From positions 1 to 34,771 of the IMG/VR virus record IMGVR_UViG_3300037225_000218: a stretch of 34,771 nt of DNA; one strand, 5' to 3'. Numbering within the stretch: position 1 is the stretch's first letter; each line of letters opens with the position of its first letter. Below, one piece after another: positions 4,022-32,542 of the stretch. Source of the DNA: a virus. The notes under the pieces are model-generated. The model was not told the origin of the DNA. It made no database searches and saw only the letters and a list, made by a program, of their open reading frames with translations. The translations under genes were made by a program, and so were the position numbers.

Positions 4022-4723
4022 ATGATAGAAGCAAAGCGATGCGTTGTTAACGCGGCGGTTGGCCCTGCTCGATTCAAGAGAGGACAGGATAGGCTTGTTA
4101 ACTTGCTATTTGGCGTAGGATGCCGCGAGCCTATTATGCTCGTGGATGATGCGAACCAACCCGAGGGTATGCCGTCGCACCAGGAAGTACCGTATGGGTT
4201 CAAAGTATGGTCTATGGAGGCGGCTCAAAAGGCGGGGTATAACGTTTTGTTGTGGCTGGATACATCAATCATGCCCGTGCATAATCTTGATGTGTTGTGG
4301 ACAAGCTTGGAAGATACGGGGTATCTTTACGAGACCAACGATCAGGTAGTCGGCAATTGGGCTACAGATGCTTTTTTACGGAAGCATAGCCTGACGCGGG
4401 ATGCTGCCATGTACATTCCCGATGGGGCGGCTTGCATGCTCGGTCTGGATTTGCGATGGACACGTTCAGTTACGTTTTTATGGATGTGGAAACGGCTGGC
4501 CATGGACGGCGTGAGTTTCCTCGGACCTAGGAGCAGGCCGGCGACAGACACGTCAGACCCTCGCTACTTGGGGCATCGCTGGGATCAGACAGCAGCATCG
4601 TATCTAATGTACACGCTGGGCCTTCCGGTGCAACCGCGTCGTTTTCATGCGTACGACGAGCCATGGGGGACTACCCACACGCCAGGACCGGATTGTTGCC
4701 TGCGGGTACGGCATTCACTTTGA
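4022..4723 (+). CDS. glycosyltransferase-like protein (GT-A-like)
   Basis: A 233-residue protein with the stretch AGYNVLLWLDTSI, in which Asp80-Thr-Ser82 could serve as the metal/nucleotide-sugar motif of a GT-A fold. Later come MYIPDGAACMLGLDL and YLGHRWDQTAASYLMYTLG, which resembles the acceptor-side end of such enzymes. I cannot assign a numbered family. It follows the nuclease/resolvase genes by 13 bases with AGAGAA upstream of the ATG and belongs to the same operon. It could modify phage DNA, a virion protein or a host glycan; nothing here decides. Codon use looks slightly more AT-rich than in its neighbours, so it may be a recent arrival. Confidence 0.5.
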   Translation: MIEAKRCVVNAAVGPARFKRGQDRLVNLLFGVGCREPIMLVDDANQPEGMPSHQEVPYGFKVWSMEAAQKAGYNVLLWLDTSIMPVHNLDVLWTSLEDTGYLYETNDQVVGNWATDAFLRKHSLTRDAAMYIPDGAACMLGLDLRWTRSVTFLWMWKRLAMDGVSFLGPRSRPATDTSDPRYLGHRWDQTAASYLMYTLGLPVQPRRFHAYDEPWGTTHTPGPDCCLRVRHSL

Positions 4724-21162: not shown

Positions 21163-21735
21163 TTACAGGAACTTGCAGAGAACGAGGCCCGCCGTGGCTC
21201 CCGTGGTCGCATTCGTCTCCACAGCGATGGCGGTCATATCGAACAGACCGTTCGTGGGGGCCAGAAGGATAGCTCCAGTGACGGTGCCGCTGGTGCCGAC
21301 CGTAGTGGACAGGACCGATGCAACGAAGTTGTTGCTAGGGGTTGCGTAGTCCGGCTGCAAGACAGTGGTTCCCGCCGTAGTGTTGACCTTACACCACAAA
21401 GTCACCACGTCGCCCTTGCGGGGCTTGACGAGCGTCACGAAAGCCGGGCCAGTCACACCACCACTGGAATCGTCCACGACGCCGGCAAACGAGCCGTAAG
21501 GCGTAGTCGCCGTGTTGCTACTGGACAGGCCCACATCATTCACGATGCGGCCGACCAGAGTCTTCCGATCATTGCTGAGATCGGGGGAAGCCGGCGTATT
21601 GGTGATGGAGACATGGGACGTGACTGTGCCCATATCGTAGCACAAGGCTTGCCCCGCCTTGAGAGTGTTCGTACCGGCGTACCACACTTGCACGAGACTC
21701 AAATCCTGGTTTGCGTTATTTTGTCCGAGACTCAC
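21163..21735 (-). CDS. capsid decoration-like protein
   Basis: A 190-residue beta-rich protein next to the major capsid gene: [46 protein letters not shown] and a C-terminal GLVLCKFL. The 'KAGQA' turn and many short strands fit phage capsid cement/decoration proteins, but no family can be named surely. The start is a GTG overlapping the stop of the truncated HNH gene (GTGA), with GGGAG inside that gene. It is followed by a strong terminator, so it probably shares a transcript with the capsid gene and is made in large amounts. Confidence 0.55.
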
Positions 21736-21926
21736 GGGGAAGCTCCCGCCAGATAATGACTGGCTGCTTGGAGTAAAACTTGGCTGTCTTTGAAATGACC
21801 TAGGCCAAGATTACAGTTTATACAAAGTAGACCACGAACTTTTCCGGTCGCGTGATCGTGATCGACGTGCATTCCACGAAGAACGTCGTCGCTTATTGGA
21901 GTGCGACAAATCGCACACTGGCCCAT
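21732..21926 (-). CDS. N-terminally truncated HNH endonuclease VII-like protein
   Basis: A 64-residue remnant of a homing-type endonuclease. It keeps the zinc and active-site core: CAIC, then [19 protein letters not shown], and [17 protein letters not shown]. The complete copy at 23107-23442 has about 50 more residues before the first Cys pair; here the ATG sits three codons before it and the bases upstream belong to the capsid gene. The core is intact, but loss of the N-terminal helices may abolish specific DNA binding. It lies 16 bases after the capsid stop, and its end carries the ribosome binding site of the decoration-like gene, which may be why it has been kept. Confidence 0.65.
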
Positions 21927-21942
21927 CTTGCCTAGTTTACCC

Positions 21943-23085
21943 TTAAGTCGCAGGCATCCTAGACAGCACAAACCCGCCTTCCCTAACGTTGGTGCAAAAA
22001 TACTGGTAACTGCCGTCGATGAACGTAGTGATGACGTTGTGCTGCTCCACGTCCATGAGAGGATCGCTCTCACGCATCCAGTCACCGTCCAGGACGATGG
22101 GGAAGAACTTGGCGTGGTTCACGCCGTAGATCACGCCGTCCGCATCATTGTCCACCTGCGGAGTATAGATCACGGGAACCCGGCGGAACACGGTGATGCC
22201 GTGGAACTTGTCCAGGTCGGAGCCCAGGTTCTCGTTCTGCTTCGTGGTCAAATCCTCGAAGTCAGTCAGGTTGTTCAGGCCCATGTAGATGCGGAACTTG
22301 CTGGTGGGACCATCTTTCAGGTCAGTCGCCAGCATGGGGCTCTTGAAGCCGGTGGCGTGGAAGGCCCGACGCATTCGCTTCACAAAGTCTTGATCAACGC
22401 TGGTGTACACGTCAGCCCAATTCCGCCACTTGGCCAGATTGGTCGGGTTCAGCCCGCCTTTGTTCGTAGTGTCGTCGGTGCCGCCCGCATATCGAACACG
22501 CCGACCCACGAAGCCGCCGCCCACTGCCTGACCGTTCGCCCCGCCGCCGTTCGCCGTAGTGGCCCCGTCCAGCGTAGCCGAATACCCGGTGCCGTTAGTC
22601 GGAATGACTTTCGACAGCCAATAGGGCAGGCCGAGGGGATTCAGGTCGTCCGTAGTGGACTGCGGGGCAGACCACGCAGTAGTTTCCAACAGGTCCGCGA
22701 GGGACACCATGCCGTCCACCCGCCGGGACTTCAGAAGTTCGATGTACATGGCGGGCTTGCGATTCCGCAGAGCCTCACGCCGTTCGATGGAGTAGCTCGT
22801 CTGAACCTGGACCCACGGAGCCGTGATTCGGCTCTGAACGTCCGCGACGTTCAGAGTAGTCTTCTGGAACAAACGAACGTGCTTCGCGTTGCCGGAGCTA
22901 TCGAGGATGATGTTACGGACGATGGACGTGCCGCTGCCGACCTGGACCTTCTCAGAACGGAACCACTCGTTGACCACGTTATATTGCTGGTACGTGAGAG
23001 CCACTTCAAAGTCGAGACTCGGAAGGTTCTCCAGCGTAGTCCTTTGCAAATCGACAAGATCGGAATTGCTGATCCCACTAGCCAT
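21943..23085 (-). CDS. major capsid protein
   Basis: A 380-residue protein, the expected size for an HK97-fold coat protein. It lies after a scaffold-like gene and portal and before a decoration-like gene. Recognisable stretches: [38 protein letters not shown], a Gly-rich loop (about 200-225), [19 protein letters not shown], and the C-terminal [20 protein letters not shown], which fits the last strands of the coat fold. An HNH endonuclease gene sits on each side, an arrangement often seen around essential phage genes. Naming rests on order and pattern. Confidence 0.8.
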
Positions 23086-23106: not shown

Positions 23107-23442
23107 TTAGGTGGGTGGCGGTTTCAGGTACTCAATGACCTTCAACATACCTTCCACGTTGTCACCGAAGTGCCCTAGGGCTGTGTTGCACAGGACGCAC
23201 AACAATCCACGGATACGTCCCGTTTCATGGTCGTGGTCAACGCACCAGTTTTTCTTCGGCGGTTTTTTACACAAGGCACACACTTGTCCTTGTGCCGCCT
23301 TAATGGCGTCTTCTTGTTCCAACGTGAGCCCGTAGGTCAGACGGATATGGTCGGCTCTGCGACAACGTGGATCGTTTGCGATCCGGTTGGCCAACCATTT
23401 CTTCTGATACGCACGACGAGCGGCTAAGTCTATTAGTGGCAT
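23107..23442 (-). CDS. HNH endonuclease VII-type homing endonuclease
   Basis: A 111-residue complete copy. Basic N-terminal helix (AARRAYQKKWLANR), LTYGLTLEQEDAIKAAQG, zinc pair CALC, active site CVDHDHETGRIRGLLC, second pair with VLCN, and the C-terminal helix GHFGDNVEGMLKVIEYL, as in the recombination endonuclease VII family. It would cut DNA lacking the gene and promote its own spread. It has its own promoter (23449-23477); the ATG is six bases after the -10 box, so the RNA should be leaderless. It sits just upstream of the capsid gene. Confidence 0.85.
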   Translation of the reverse strand: MPLIDLAARRAYQKKWLANRIANDPRCRRADHIRLTYGLTLEQEDAIKAAQGQVCALCKKPPKKNWCVDHDHETGRIRGLLCVLCNTALGHFGDNVEGMLKVIEYLKPPPT

Positions 23443-25116: not shown

Positions 25117-26931
25117 TTAAGCCGGGCCAGCCGGCTGTGGTGCCGCTTGCTGAACCGCCGAGTTACCCTCTTGCTGTGGACTGATCCCGCCATTCGGCCC
25201 CATTTGAGCGGGATTCGGCTGCCCTGGATTCATCGCCGGAGGAGCGGGGGATGGGCCAGGAGGCTGGGCCTGTTGCATGTATGGAGCGGCCTTAGACGGA
25301 TTCACGCCCATTTTCTGGCTCATCTGCATCATGGTCCACGCGGTGAATTCCGGCGTGTTCATAAATTGATCGGCGTCCTCGATCCCAACGTCCTTGGCGA
25401 TGCGTAGAAGGAACTCGCCAATCTTGAACCCGGGGCCGAGCATTTGAGCCGCCTGGGCCGCAGCGGGGATGACGTTCGTAGCGAACTCCAGCTTTCTGCG
25501 AACCGCCGTGTTGGGGTCTTGGCGGGCCATGCTGAAGGGCTCGACGTGGACGTGGAAGTCAAGCCAATCGCCTTGCCGAACGTCCGGGCTAAGGACGACT
25601 TGCTCATCTTGACCGTTGACCCGGCGAGCCAAAGGAAGCTCGATAAGCGGATCAGTATGAAGATAGAAAGCAAGGTCGCCACCGACTTCTCCGGTGAATT
25701 GATACACCAGAGCCTGCATGTCCGACAAGCGAACATTGGTGTTGGCCTGAAGCATTTCGCTCTGCGTGGCAGTAGGAGCCGAGGCCGACGTGCCCTGAAG
25801 CAAGTCCGTGTTGCCGGCCTGCTCGCTGAACTTTTTGCTGATCCACTCCATGTACGTGTAGGCATCGTTGCTGGTGCCGCCGTACTTTACTTCCTTGATG
25901 GCGTTGATGTCGTCCACCCGAACCGTCTCTCCGTCATCGGATTCCGCGATGCTGTTAGCATCTTCGACAGCCGAGCCTTGATACGCCAGCACTTGCTTAA
26001 GACGTTCAGCCTGCCGCGACAACTTTCGGGCAATACGATTCCCCAGGATGTGAAGATCATACCAGATTCCGGCGGGAGCCACTGGCAGAACGTTATCCGG
26101 AACGTACGTGAACCCAAGCATATGGTACTGTCCACGATATGGACCTTCGTAATCAACCACGCGTAGAAACGCATCCTGTTGATCGCCTCGACGATACGGG
26201 AGCGTAACCACCACTTTTTCCTGCGGAAAGTAGACTTCAACAAGGTCAACATAGCGGTTAATCTCCTGGAACCGTTGGGCCGACTTATCCCCGATGATCT
26301 TCTCCGCAGGGCCGTCGCCAGGGTCCATGGAGTCGTACCGGCTGGAAAGCTTCTGGACCACCTTCTCATCGTACAGTCCGGACGCCATAAGGTCATCCAT
26401 GCTCACACGGAAACGGTGCCCCATGAACGCCTGCTCTTCCCAATCGCGAGCCATGGGGTCCAGGACCATGTCATCAGGGTCGATGCGTTCAGCGTACGGC
26501 TGCCCAATCTGCACGTCCACGCCTTCAATCGTGATAAATTCTTCGGAGGATGCAATGCCGGTCTTCATGAAACCCGCCATGAACAGGGCGTCAGTGATAA
26601 CCTTTCGCAACGTGCTGCGTAGCCCAATGCGTTTGGACAGATGATTGATAGCCAGCCCCAGGATATCCCCATATTGGCGATAAGGAAGAACGTCGGTGCG
26701 AACAGCGAAATGCGGATCGTTGTAGACAAGGTTGGGGACGAGCGTCGTTACCGCTCCGTACAGAAGATTCAAAGGGGCAGCCTTACGATCCTCTTCCGAA
26801 CCAGGGAACATCTTGGAGTAGAACCGGCCCGTCATTTGAGAAAGAAAGCGTCCACGAGCCCTCCGGAAATGGTCGAACTTAGAGCAAGAAACATTAACTG
26901 CCCGGCTGACATTGATCGGATTGATCTTCAT
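25117..26931 (-). CDS. portal protein
   Basis: A 604-residue protein likely to form the twelve-subunit portal through which DNA enters and leaves. N-terminal helices (HFRRARGRFLSQMTGRF), LNLLYGAVTTLVPNLVYNDP, IGLRSTLRKVITDALFMAG, and DPDDMVLDPMARDWEEQAF are common in podovirus-type portals. The C-terminal 70 residues are Pro/Gln-rich and probably disordered. It follows large terminase by a few small genes, as usual. GGAG lies about eight bases upstream of the ATG. The start overlaps the end of the degraded HNH gene as ATGA, so that remnant provides the upstream context. Confidence 0.85.
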   Translation of the reverse strand: MKINPINVSRAVNVSCSKFDHFRRARGRFLSQMTGRFYSKMFPGSEEDRKAAPLNLLYGAVTTLVPNLVYNDPHFAVRTDVLPYRQYGDILGLAINHLSKRIGLRSTLRKVITDALFMAGFMKTGIASSEEFITIEGVDVQIGQPYAERIDPDDMVLDPMARDWEEQAFMGHRFRVSMDDLMASGLYDEKVVQKLSSRYDSMDPGDGPAEKIIGDKSAQRFQEINRYVDLVEVYFPQEKVVVTLPYRRGDQQDAFLRVVDYEGPYRGQYHMLGFTYVPDNVLPVAPAGIWYDLHILGNRIARKLSRQAERLKQVLAYQGSAVEDANSIAESDDGETVRVDDINAIKEVKYGGTSNDAYTYMEWISKKFSEQAGNTDLLQGTSASAPTATQSEMLQANTNVRLSDMQALVYQFTGEVGGDLAFYLHTDPLIELPLARRVNGQDEQVVLSPDVRQGDWLDFHVHVEPFSMARQDPNTAVRRKLEFATNVIPAAAQAAQMLGPGFKIGEFLLRIAKDVGIEDADQFMNTPEFTAWTMMQMSQKMGVNPSKAAPYMQQAQPPGPSPAPPAMNPGQPNPAQMGPNGGISPQQEGNSAVQQAAPQPAGPA

Positions 26932-27163
26932 AAGTATTTCTCCAGGTACTCCCTCGCCTTCATTAAGCGAGCTACAGAGTCACCAGCCATGCCGATCAAC
27001 GTATTGCAGCATTGGCAAAGCAAGCCACGGACTTTTCCAGAAACGTGGTCGTGGTCGATTCCGAGAAGTTTCGCCCCACCTCCGCTACACGCTCTGGATG
27101 CCGAAGACGGTACTTCCTTTGGGCCTCTCTCTGATAAGCCCGCATTTCTTCGACCGTTTTCAT
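26928..27163 (-). pseudogene. degraded HNH endonuclease VII-type gene
   Basis: A third endonuclease copy, broken. From ATG 27163 (GAGG upstream) the first frame encodes an intact family N-terminus: MKTVEEMRAYQREAQRKYR and then LRHPERVAEV. The C-terminal core, [19 protein letters not shown] and MAGDSVARLMKAREYLEKYL, is in a different frame ending at 26928. The part that should lie between them, with the first zinc Cys pair, is missing. So there is an internal deletion plus frameshift. The first frame ends by itself at 26996. The gene cannot make an active enzyme; its 3' end overlaps the portal start codon. Confidence 0.75.
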
Positions 27164-27183
27164 TGCATTGCCTCAAGAAAGGA

Positions 27184-27224
27184 AGCCTCGCGTGGGTGTG
27201 GTAGAAACCAGCCCACGCGAGGCT
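27184..27224 (-). terminator. strong hairpin, candidate terminator
   Basis: Perfect 13-bp inverted repeat AGCCTCGCGTGGG / CCCACGCGAGGCT (27184-27196 and 27212-27224), with a further TGGT/ACCA pairing inside the loop. On the - strand it is followed by TTCCTTTCTT, an interrupted U-rich tract, so termination may be partial. It lies between the 94-residue gene and the broken HNH gene/portal. It may instead be an RNA-stability hairpin. Confidence 0.55.
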
Positions 27225-27296
27225 CACCTAAAGCCGGGTCACACGTTGGATGCTCTCGCATCAGGGCTCCCCGGCCTCCCCCTGCCCATCCCTGGG

Positions 27297-28454: not shown

Positions 28455-30338
28455 TCACCGTGACCAAGCCCACTTCTCGGAACGTTTCTCTTGGTGCGTC
28501 CGCCGCCGGTCGGCAAACGAATTCACCGGCGGTCGATTCGGTCGTACGATTTCCGTTGTCGGTAAATCCTTACGACCGAGAACAACTAACGCATCACTTA
28601 TTACGTGGTCCCCATGAAGGGCTGCCCCGCCGCCCTCTTCTGAACCCACTGTTCCAGGCTCAATCTTACCCTTCTCCGAATACACGTAATCGAGAGCCTC
28701 ATCCAAAGACTCTTTGCACGGATTCATGATCGTGCAGAGTTTCAAGGCATCGCGATACATGCCCAGCAACATTTCCTTTCGAGACGGAGACGACTGCCAA
28801 CCCCAGCGTCCGGTCGGCGTGTCAGTCCGGGTGCTGTCCGTTTTCTGATAATAGATCGACGGGTATCCGAGGGACAGCAACTTTCGGCCAAAGATTACGC
28901 CAGGGCCATTCTTCTCGAATATGATAAGGGGGGCAGCAATGCCGCCGAACCACACGCCGGCGAAGGCGGCGACTTCCGCAAGCTCCTCGGGGGACGTGTA
29001 GGCATCCCAAAACTTCGCAACGATCAGATTCGTGCTGTTGTCCAGGACTGTTATCACCGAGTTGCTTGATCCGGACCCGGCCGATATGTCTATGCCGAAC
29101 ACGTACCGGGTAAGCTGATGCGGCCGAGACTGCCCCGTCTTTTCGTCCGGAATGAGCGGCACCCAAAACCGCCACGGGCGGCGGGCCGGATTTTCCGCCC
29201 AGGCGACCACCTTGGACTGCATCTGCCGTATGAACGAGAACTTCTCTTCCTGTGGCAAATCCGAATCGAAGGCAATGTTGCCGACCGCAAGCGGAGGCGT
29301 CTCGAACTTCTTTCGGTGCTGCTCCACTTCCTCCGCGTCAAAGAAGGCATCGCCGGCCCGGCCATGCTCCATGTCTAGGTTCTGTGCGATGTTCTTCTTC
29401 GACCGGCGGGTTTTCTGATCCTCATAGTACGGGCTCGTCCACCGCAAGCAATCGCGAACCGGGTCGTAAACTTGAGTCGCGTCCCTGCCCTTCAAGGGAT
29501 GATGCCACCAGGGGAATTCCACCAGAACGGCATCGCGAACGCCTGATTTAACCGCCTTGAAAATTCGAGTAAACTGCGTGTTTGGACCGCTCGGGGTGCT
29601 GTTGAAAATGCGACACGAGCTTGTATCCGCTGTTGCCAAGTCAATCTCTTCCCCGGTCGCCACGCGGGCGAATTCATCCAGAAGAATGGCAGTTTTGCGG
29701 GAGGCTTGACCGGCGTTCTCATTGGTGCTTTCCCCCTCAATCGACGTGCCCAGGTCTTGATTTTCAAGGTGAAGCTTCGTATCCACAATTTGCTTCGGCC
29801 GCATCCACTCGGGTTGCCATCGCAGGAGATACCTATGCTTTTCAAAGAGGGAGTCCATGTCGCCGCGACGGTCAACGAGGGATTCTTTGCGAGACAACTC
29901 TAAAAACGTCGTAGACGGAACGAATTGCCAATACCACTGGAACAACGCGACGATGAGCCAAGATGCTCCCATGTCGCGAGACTTCGATATTAGAACGTCG
30001 TGGCCGGTCTTTATCGCCTCGTGCATCTTCACTAAAGCATCGTCTTGAATCTTCCAGGTCACGAACGGTACGTGAGACGATCCGCCCGTCACGGATGTTT
30101 CGTGACCCGACCCGTCCACGGACTTCTGGAGGAAAGTCCACCCCATCAAGTTGAGCCAGTAAATCGGTGACTGACGGCAAGCGAGTTTGATGCGACGACG
30201 AGTAGAGAAGGAATTCTTAGCCGCACGCAACAGGCTACGCCGCCACTCAATGTTCTTGGGAACATGCTTAGGGATTTCCAACCCGGTATATGGGTCAGTC
30301 ATGGCGTCGGTGTATTGTAGAACGATTCCAGCGTTCAC
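28455..30338 (-). CDS. terL: terminase large subunit
   Basis: The packaging motor, 627 residues. ATPase half: Walker A-like LISKSRDMGASW (about 117-127, where Arg121 and Gly124 replace the usual GK pattern, as in many terminases), Walker B AILLDEFARV (Asp221-Glu222), and coupling motif RIFNSTPSG near 243. Nuclease half: FGIDISAGSGSSNSVI (Asp416) and a late GDHVISDALVV. The GTG at 30338 is chosen because GGAGG lies six bases upstream; ATG 30302 has no site. The three genes before it are paralogues and the small-terminase-like gene lies beyond them. Confidence 0.93.
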   Translation of the reverse strand: MNAGIVLQYTDAMTDPYTGLEIPKHVPKNIEWRRSLLRAAKNSFSTRRRIKLACRQSPIYWLNLMGWTFLQKSVDGSGHETSVTGGSSHVPFVTWKIQDDALVKMHEAIKTGHDVLISKSRDMGASWLIVALFQWYWQFVPSTTFLELSRKESLVDRRGDMDSLFEKHRYLLRWQPEWMRPKQIVDTKLHLENQDLGTSIEGESTNENAGQASRKTAILLDEFARVATGEEIDLATADTSSCRIFNSTPSGPNTQFTRIFKAVKSGVRDAVLVEFPWWHHPLKGRDATQVYDPVRDCLRWTSPYYEDQKTRRSKKNIAQNLDMEHGRAGDAFFDAEEVEQHRKKFETPPLAVGNIAFDSDLPQEEKFSFIRQMQSKVVAWAENPARRPWRFWVPLIPDEKTGQSRPHQLTRYVFGIDISAGSGSSNSVITVLDNSTNLIVAKFWDAYTSPEELAEVAAFAGVWFGGIAAPLIIFEKNGPGVIFGRKLLSLGYPSIYYQKTDSTRTDTPTGRWGWQSSPSRKEMLLGMYRDALKLCTIMNPCKESLDEALDYVYSEKGKIEPGTVGSEEGGGAALHGDHVISDALVVLGRKDLPTTEIVRPNRPPVNSFADRRRTHQEKRSEKWAWSR

Positions 30339-31618: not shown

Positions 31619-32230
31619 CTAGGAATTAATGATCCGTCCGGTGAGGGTGACTTCTTTCTTCGCAAACGCGTTCAGCTTGTCTAAGTCCAGCCTGTCCAAC
31701 TGATCCTCCAATGTCGTGTCCGCCGGAGCCACATTAGCTGCCCGACCGGCTTTTCCTTCCACACGGTCGGCGATTACTTCCTGAAGTTGCTTGTCCCCGT
31801 CCAGTGCCTTCTGCATCATCTTGCGAGCAAGCACTTCCGCATTCGTCATCCTTCGTGCCCCGTCCTGAAACTCATCCGCTGCAATCTCGACGATAATTTT
31901 CCGTAGCCAACCCGTCAGTCCCCGGTCGTCCTCGACGACGGCAGGGTCAGGAACTCCCTGCGGCTCAACGGCTGGTTGGCTCCCCCCACCGTGCTTATCG
32001 TCAAGGGTTGCAAATAGCCGCTCCGGCTTAGCCTCCGAAGCAATTGCGTTGCATGAGCCCTGCAATACAGGTCTTTCGGATTTCCCAGCAGTCTCCCGCA
32101 CACTTTGCACTGCGTTGCCATCGGAAAGCTCAAGGCTAAGGCCGACGCTCTTTCTTGGGCGTCCAGGACCGCGAACACTTGTTTTGGAAACAGGGGCGGG
32201 ATTTTCGCCCGCAACTCGTTCGCGTTTCAT
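31619..32230 (-). CDS. small-terminase-like protein with AT-hook-like motif
   Basis: A 203-residue protein in the usual small-terminase place, the first protein gene of the packaging operon. Residues 20-28 read RGPGRPRKS, an AT-hook-like GRP core. The centre, EVLARKMMQKALDGDKQLQEV followed by ADRVEGKAG, matches phage proteins of the DUF5681/small-terminase kind. The last residues VTLTGRIINS repeat the ending of the three beta-rich proteins that follow. GAGGC lies about ten bases upstream of ATG 32230; longer in-frame readings would run into the tRNA-like sequence. Small terminase is inferred from position and the RVEGK region. Confidence 0.55.
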   Translation of the reverse strand: MKRERVAGENPAPVSKTSVRGPGRPRKSVGLSLELSDGNAVQSVRETAGKSERPVLQGSCNAIASEAKPERLFATLDDKHGGGSQPAVEPQGVPDPAVVEDDRGLTGWLRKIIVEIAADEFQDGARRMTNAEVLARKMMQKALDGDKQLQEVIADRVEGKAGRAANVAPADTTLEDQLDRLDLDKLNAFAKKEVTLTGRIINS

Positions 32231-32278
32231 TGCGATGCCTCTGAAAGTTGGGCTACCCTGCTGTCGATCTTCGTCATA

Positions 32279-32347
32279 GGGCCGAACGGGACTCGAACCC
32301 GCATCTTCGTAACTAAGGCCCGAAATGCTTCTTTGCACCATCGGCCC
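32279..32347 (-). tRNA. degenerate tRNA-like element, possible UUA anticodon
   Basis: A 69-base cloverleaf on the - strand. Perfect acceptor stem GGGCCGA / TCGGCCC, T-arm GCGGG-TTCGAGT-CCCGT, and a D-stem GTGC/GCAT with loop AAAGAA, which is short and lacks the conserved GG. The anticodon stem has a G-A mismatch and loop CCTTAGT. If G is base 37, the anticodon reads UUA (would read the UAA stop), but base 33 is then C instead of the universal U. No CCA is encoded. Likely a decayed or unusual tRNA; a functional suppressor is speculative. It lies in the leader of the late transcript before the small-terminase-like gene. Confidence 0.55.
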
Positions 32348-32363
32348 ATCAGTCTTCACCAAA

Positions 32364-32421
32364 GCATGCTGGTGGGATTCGAACCCACGACTAAAAGTTC
32401 TACCGCTGAACTACAGCATGC
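32364..32421 (-). tRNA. tRNA-like element lacking the anticodon arm
   Basis: On the - strand: acceptor stem GCATGCTG / CAGCATGC (8 bp; 7 bp in the standard layout), TA at positions 8-9, a normal D-arm GTTC-AGCGGTA-GAAC with the conserved GG, and a normal T-arm GTGGG-TTCGAAT-CCCAC. Between the D- and T-arms are only eight bases, TTTTAGTC, where about 23 are expected, so the anticodon arm is gone. The rest is well conserved, which argues against random decay. Either a recent deletion or a tRNA-shaped RNA kept for processing or another role. Confidence 0.6.
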
Positions 32422-32514: not shown

Positions 32515-32542
32515 ATTATACCATATCCCCCGAGAAAAGCAA
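32515..32542 (-). promoter_or_regulatory. promoter for tRNA-like/packaging operon
   Basis: On the - strand: -35 TTGCTT (32542-32537), 16-base spacer ending TATGG, -10 TATAAT (32520-32515). Transcription should start near 32508, at the foot of the leader hairpin, and run through the tRNA-like elements into the small-terminase-like gene. Confidence 0.75.

Follow-up and report, generated by a model that had tools for sequence, protein, structure and literature searches.

An anticodon-arm-less tRNA-like element upstream of phage terminase genes and the recurring class of phage RNA genes to which it belongs

The 58-nt element and the front of the late operon

The window analyzed here is a viral DNA stretch of 34,771 nt (IMG/VR record IMGVR_UViG_3300037225_000218, positions 1 to 34,771). 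Two tRNA-like elements lie on its minus strand, ahead of the terminase genes (Table 1). The first is 58 nt long and reads, from 32421 to 32364, GCATGCTG TA GTTC AGCGGTA GAAC TTTTAGTC GTGGG TTCGAAT CCCAC CAGCATGC. All 17 of its stem pairs are formed (eight in the acceptor stem, four in the D stem and five in the T stem), and the conserved tRNA core is present (TA at positions 8-9, the GG of the D loop at 18-19, the TTCGA of the T loop and C48). The acceptor can be read as 8 bp or as 7 bp plus a G-1:C73 pair, and no CCA is encoded. Although the stems and core bases are those of a canonical tRNA, the anticodon arm with its 7-nt loop is missing: only 8 nt lie between the D and T arms. This linker ends in GTC, as a normal variable loop does.

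The element is matched by the Rfam tRNA model (46.7 bits, E-value: 4.5e-07, gathering score 29) and by class model R1, described below (67 bits, the window element being one of the 59 training sequences of R1). Its minimum free energy structure (-22.8 kcal/mol) is the fold described here, and none of 200 shuffled sequences was equally stable (z-score -3.4). In the window, ARAGORN does not call the 58-nt element and reports no tmRNA. Decoding by this RNA is impossible by anatomy; apart from that, the element behaves as phage tRNA genes do.

The second element has a 7-bp acceptor stem, a normal T arm and a D loop that lacks GG. Judged by eye, its most plausible anticodon arm has a stem of 4-5 bp and a loop of probably 11 nt, and this element is possibly non-decoding as well. 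Both elements sit between the candidate promoter element TGGTATAAT and the first late gene. Going downstream from the putative promoter, one meets the 58-nt element as the first large structure, followed by the second tRNA-like fold and then by the first gene. These features bear out a first-pass annotation of the same DNA, which had described well-formed acceptor, D and T arms with conserved bases, only eight bases joining the D and T arms, a second odd tRNA-like element beside them and a place at the front of the late operon; the last of these is supported by gene order and by the putative extended -10-like TGGTATAAT, a site (32523-32515) that a consensus promoter scanner run on the window did not list.

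Among the structural genes of the window are three small genes (21732-22085, 23107-23442 and 26928-27227, minus strand) that have the look of endonuclease VII/HNH paralogues. They are likely to be homing enzymes; the profile search covered the first of the three only (21732-22085).

Table 1. Features of the element and of the late operon in the window
Feature	Position	Strand	Basis
Anticodon-arm-less tRNA-like element, 58 nt	32364..32421	-	Rfam tRNA, class model R1, MFE fold
Acceptor stem 5' strand, GCATGCTG	32414..32421	-	8/8 pairs with 32364-32371
D arm, GTTC AGCGGTA GAAC	32397..32411	-	4/4 pairs, GG present
Linker TTTTAGTC, 8 nt	32389..32396	-	Replaces position 26, anticodon arm and variable loop
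T arm, GTGGG TTCGAAT CCCAC	32372..32388	-	5/5 pairs
Acceptor stem 3' strand, CAGCATGC	32364..32371	-	Followed by TTTGG, so without CCA
Second odd tRNA-like element	32278..32347	-	Rfam tRNA 42.9 bits; ARAGORN tRNA-Stop(tta)
TGGTATAAT, candidate extended -10 promoter element	32515..32523	-	Read from sequence; ~94 nt upstream of the 58-nt element
First gene after the RNA elements (start 32230), putative small terminase subunit	31619..32230	-	Position; weak DUF5681 match
Terminase large subunit, later in the same operon	28455..30338	-	phrog_2 E-value 1.9e-12; 35% identical to L025 terminase

Recurrence of the arm-less form

A set of 2.9 million viral contigs was scanned for D and T arms that only a short gap separates. 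With a gap of 6-19 nt, six further viral contigs were found, all carrying arm-less elements and several of them within tRNA clusters. A looser pattern, in which a linker of 1-13 nt was allowed, matched at least 119 stretches, compared to 36 matches for a control pattern in which the order of the motif blocks was swapped. Acceptors with at least 6/7 pairs were found in 86 of 122 matches, versus 4.7 with permuted partners; of the matches whose D and T arms are good, approximately a quarter have a weak acceptor. Filtering for a complete D stem (4/4), a T stem of at least 4/5 and an acceptor of at least 6/7 leaves 72 distinct arm-less elements, including that of the window and one bacterial-genome match. 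These elements, spread over dozens of phages that are not related to one another, form a recurring class of phage RNA genes in which the acceptor stem, D arm, T arm and elbow are kept and the anticodon arm is lost.

All members are approximately 55-64 nt in size. Although linkers of 1-13 nt were permitted, 52 of the 72 have a linker of 8-9 nt, and its end is nearly always C48 (GTC in 43 members; GTC, TGC or CGC in 63). The window element, with its intact arms and 8-nt linker ending in C48, fits this description. The acceptors comprise many different paired sequences with no shared identity element, while the elbow is constant. In the 59-sequence alignment, 96.4% of the cells are paired and the covariation score is 0.763 (shuffles give 0.166, and sliding the partners gives at most 0.164). 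Covariation in the acceptor does not by itself prove that the arm-less form is kept, because different parent tRNAs could bring different paired acceptors; what bears on this question is the peak in linker length, conservation above that of the flanks and the low identity (at most 81%) to tRNAs of the same stretch. The 8-bp acceptor was considered as a sign of a selenocysteine or histidine tRNA and rejected for the class, as the eighth pair is present in 37 of 72 members where 29 are expected.

One class member is found in a cultured phage, Polaribacter phage Danklef, where the 58-nt element is annotated as "tRNA-OTHER, Undet (NNN)" and lies approximately 1.8 kb before the small terminase gene. 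Because ARAGORN calls none of the 72 elements, and tRNA finders otherwise label such sequences "undetermined", a whole group of phage RNAs may be overlooked. No description of anticodon-arm-less phage tRNA-like genes was found in a full-text search that covered mainly the open-access journal literature. Elements of the Lactococcus P335 group (such as that of bIL309, located between endolysin and integrase) retain a 3-bp mini-arm and count only as near members. The matches in Caulobacter phage CcrPW, Salmonella phage SA002 and Streptomyces phage Ibantik were partial or made poor models and do not clearly belong to the class. Another tRNA-OTHER feature, near 88802-88830 in Streptomyces phage Enygma (PP358745.1), resembles a stretch between two tRNAs in Ibantik.

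Anticodon loss takes at least two forms, whole arm or three loop bases, because a mode with a 4-nt loop exists beside the arm-less mode. A scan for gaps of 18-24 nt (loci L127-L244) gave a 20-nt linker in 50 of 74 good-stem matches, among the matches listed. Within those listed, the 20-nt linker mostly folds into a 5-bp anticodon stem whose loop has 4 nt, three fewer than in a normal tRNA. At one locus (L190, 6327-6610, minus strand), a 59-nt arm-less element whose linker, CTTGGCGC, is outside the search pattern lies adjacent to a 70-nt shortened-loop form and a 76-nt tRNA-like sequence.

Conservation, neighborhood and the site upstream of the terminase

In related phage pairs, the elements are 90-100% identical, and the identity of the flanks falls to 51-79% in several pairs. 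For example, the element is 100% identical in L003/L005 (flanks 53 and 76%), 97% in L052/L100 (51 and 54%) and 100% in L028/L087 (78 and 52%). The first-pass annotation had proposed that compensatory stem changes would support function, and these occur in two pairs: C-G to G-C in the acceptor of L012/L089 and A-T to C-G in the T stem of L011/L031. Comparison of these sequences suggests that the arm-less elements are likely under purifying selection. This is likely rather than proven because element and flanks are equally similar in a few pairs, and because horizontal transfer of the element would also raise identity.

CCA is encoded by 5 of the 72 elements, as opposed to 71 of 126 neighboring tRNAs (Fisher p 4e-13), so the translational end is not maintained in the class. 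It is rarely encoded even where the tRNAs of a cluster have it (21 of 22 in L062 and 7 of 7 in L121), and CCA may be specifically disfavored. Position 73 is A in 50% of the class. Positions 73-76 of the 72 members retain a residual ACNA (C74 in 53%, A76 in 56% and C75 in only 21%), with ACGA alone occurring ten times.

Forty-two of the 72 elements have no other tRNA on their stretch; many members are in tRNA clusters or away from operon fronts. The nearest genes are on the strand of the element in 46 of 64 cases upstream and 52 of 65 downstream, an arrangement that is common in phages. The neighbors are diverse, the commonest being terminase, HNH nuclease and ArpU-like activator genes, and no associated protein family was found among them. 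Intrinsic terminators are present within 150 nt downstream of 7 of 69 elements, with 0.8 expected. A promoter search around all class elements gave a result near background (11 versus 7.7 expected).

A narrower pattern that fits all seven TAGTTCAG-type viral elements matches only twice in 257 billion bases of bacterial and archaeal genome sequence, and the looser pattern, searched in 392 bacterial genomes of one phylum, matched the seed genome only. The window element was not found in plasmids, where the class consensus matches only two Parabacteroides records (with a longer gap), and the consensus was not found in E. coli genomes. Among bacterial genome records, a well-formed arm-less element was found only in an uncultured Bacilli MAG (L122, CANRPF010000004.1). 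A weak PNKP-phosphatase-like gene lies approximately 1 kb upstream of this element.

A distant relative of the window phage, L025 (the same as L270), was found via the RNA pattern alone, yet its terminase is 35% identical to that of the window and its genes follow the order seen there (arm-less element, then small genes, terminase and portal). The L025 element has a different acceptor from that of the window and a 12-nt linker. Just after it, in the place of the second tRNA-like element of the window, L025 has a stable fold (AGCCTGTG...CACAGGCT, 4255-4341, minus strand, z-score -2.6).

A single-protein search with the window terminase gave no close contig, and a search with an alignment of the window and L025 terminases gave 80 relatives. 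Among these, the class model finds the arm-less form in the window and L025 only, both of which are training sequences of the model. The four closest relatives (terminases 49-61% identical) have no tRNA-like element at that place, and relatives with terminases approximately 35-38% identical have complete tRNA genes (for His, Ile, Gly or Trp) on the upstream side of the terminase. Because relatives variously carry an arm-less element, full tRNAs or nothing there, the site upstream of the terminase is a general tRNA-bearing site with gain and loss, of which the arm-less element is one occupant. The first-pass annotation had held that related phages with a full, armed tRNA at this place would count against a functional arm-less form. 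Full tRNAs do occur at the site in these more distant relatives, but no full-armed version of the window element itself was found among the relatives.

Possible functions and relation to known systems

The 58-nt element is probably a kept, non-translating phage RNA rather than an accident, judging from its sequence and that of its class. Tentatively, we prefer the reading that it is a substrate of host RNase P and RNase Z in the late-operon leader, with processing as what is selected. RNase P, RNase Z and the CCA enzyme rely on the acceptor, T arm and elbow of a tRNA, and the lost arm is the decoding part. The anatomy of the 58-nt element is compatible with such a substrate. RNase P cleaves acceptor-T-arm hairpins efficiently, the M3 and C4 RNAs of phages are among its natural substrates, and a missing CCA lowers its efficiency on some substrates (reviewed in PMC11143913).

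Under the processing model, host tRNA-maturation enzymes would recognize the putative late-operon transcript. RNase P would cut at the 5' end of the element (32421/32422), and the 3' end would be formed near 32363 through RNase Z or through trimming by exonucleases. A stable RNA of 57-58 nt would be freed and the late-operon mRNA would be given a defined new 5' end; in the window, these cuts would part the leader from the mRNA. Selection would presumably act on the processing rather than on the freed RNA. This reading is favored because the kept parts are those that RNase P uses, and the placement ahead of the terminase is shared by the window, L025 and Danklef (in the last approximately 1.8 kb before the gene). 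The recurrence of the class with intact stems, its defined linker, its conservation above that of the flanks, the rarity of CCA and the excess of downstream terminators also count in its favor. It is weakened because the element is patchy, as its absence from the four closest terminase relatives demonstrates, and because many members are in tRNA clusters, some before terminators, which fits a free small RNA equally.

The main rival is such a free RNA, which, from the sequence evidence, would fit nearly as well: a stable tRNA mimic acting in trans as a decoy or sponge for host enzymes that grip the tRNA body, and uncleavable by anticodon nucleases as it has no anticodon loop. Its targets could be defense nucleases, toxins that modify the acceptor end, or processing or modification enzymes. 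The anticodon is consistently what is removed, even in the second mode that keeps the arm but has a 4-nt loop (among the matches listed); the very variable acceptors and constant elbow argue against an amino-acid-specific role; and a terminator closes some members, as expected of a free RNA. However, no defense or tRNA-repair gene was found to adjoin the elements consistently, and competition for anticodon nucleases is doubtful as these normally need the anticodon arm for binding. A decoy role is considered unlikely, though still a serious contender. If the elements were instead relics, that is, phage tRNA genes on their way out after deletion of the anticodon arm, their coming and going, the ordinary tRNAs held at the same site in other members of the clade and the weak acceptors in a quarter of matches would be expected. 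Stem decay and neutral-like evolution are not what the class displays, as the linkers cluster tightly at 8-9 nt, 96% of the stem cells in the curated alignment are paired and the form is kept, with compensatory changes, at 90-100% identity in pairs whose flanks have diverged down to 51-54%. In addition, only the seed genome matched among the 392 bacterial genomes, and the highest identity between an element and a tRNA of the same stretch is 81%, on which ground a recent deletion from a co-resident tRNA was rejected. The relic reading is quite unlikely for the class. Accordingly, the earlier view that random decay does not account for the element gains support from the narrow linker length of the recurring form and from homologues that keep it as flanks diverge, and the recent deletion offered there as an alternative has become less likely for the class; the window copy, which is without a close homologue, could on its own be young.

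The tRNA fold could also act without being cut, as a structural domain that forms co-transcriptionally in the late-operon leader and protects the mRNA or sets its timing through stability, termination or translation control. The order of putative promoter, two tRNA-like folds and first gene in the window would suit this role, and for the tRNAOther of Bacillus cereus a role as a tRNA-like part of a larger RNA has been proposed (PMC3399842). A leader domain is nevertheless improbable for a class with many members in tRNA clusters or away from operon fronts. It is highly improbable that the elements are aminoacylated non-decoding tRNAs, charged by an acceptor-reading synthetase and used in a non-ribosomal or ribosome-rescue reaction like the tRNA-like domain of tmRNA. 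That some synthetases can charge minihelices consisting of acceptor and T arm counts for this reading, as does the A at position 73 in half of the class. Against it are the lack of an identity element common to the acceptors, the rarity of CCA even in the L062 and L121 clusters and the normal D stem, which is unlike that of tmRNA.

Beyond the choice among these roles, it seems on balance somewhat probable that phages repeatedly evolve and keep a class of small non-decoding RNAs from tRNAs stripped of the anticodon (by loss of the arm or of three loop bases) and use them outside translation, for example as an uncuttable counter-defense mimic or as an RNase P/RNase Z cassette. If functional, the elements would mean that phages exploit the tRNA shape apart from decoding, whether for steering the RNA-processing enzymes of the host or for blunting defenses that target tRNAs. 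Why phages carry tRNAs is a long-standing question, and it can be probed with a non-decoding element because at least one cultured phage, Danklef, carries one.

Like phage-encoded tRNA genes (Rfam RF00005), the arm-less elements have acceptor, D and T arms and an elbow, are mostly intergenic, are often in clusters and are gained and lost in a patchy manner. They differ from them in having no anticodon arm and no decoding, in rarely encoding CCA and in being uncalled by ARAGORN. The tRNA-like domain of tmRNA resembles them in its tRNA-like fold, with acceptor and T arm and without an anticodon, but tmRNA has no normal D stem and carries an mRNA-like domain, while the arm-less elements have a 4-bp D stem and end within their 55-64 nt. 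Phage M3 and C4 RNAs are cut by host RNase P (PMC11143913), as is proposed for the 58-nt element, and are not known to share its arm-less architecture. The Bacillus cereus pseudo-tRNA tRNAOther is likewise a tRNA-shaped RNA outside translation and is linked to a mobile island, but it has a Trp anticodon and is chromosomal (PMC3399842). The minimal mitochondrial tRNAs of nematodes and mites are also shortened by loss of an arm; those tRNAs drop the D or T arm and keep the anticodon, and the arm-less phage elements do the reverse (PMC2797822).
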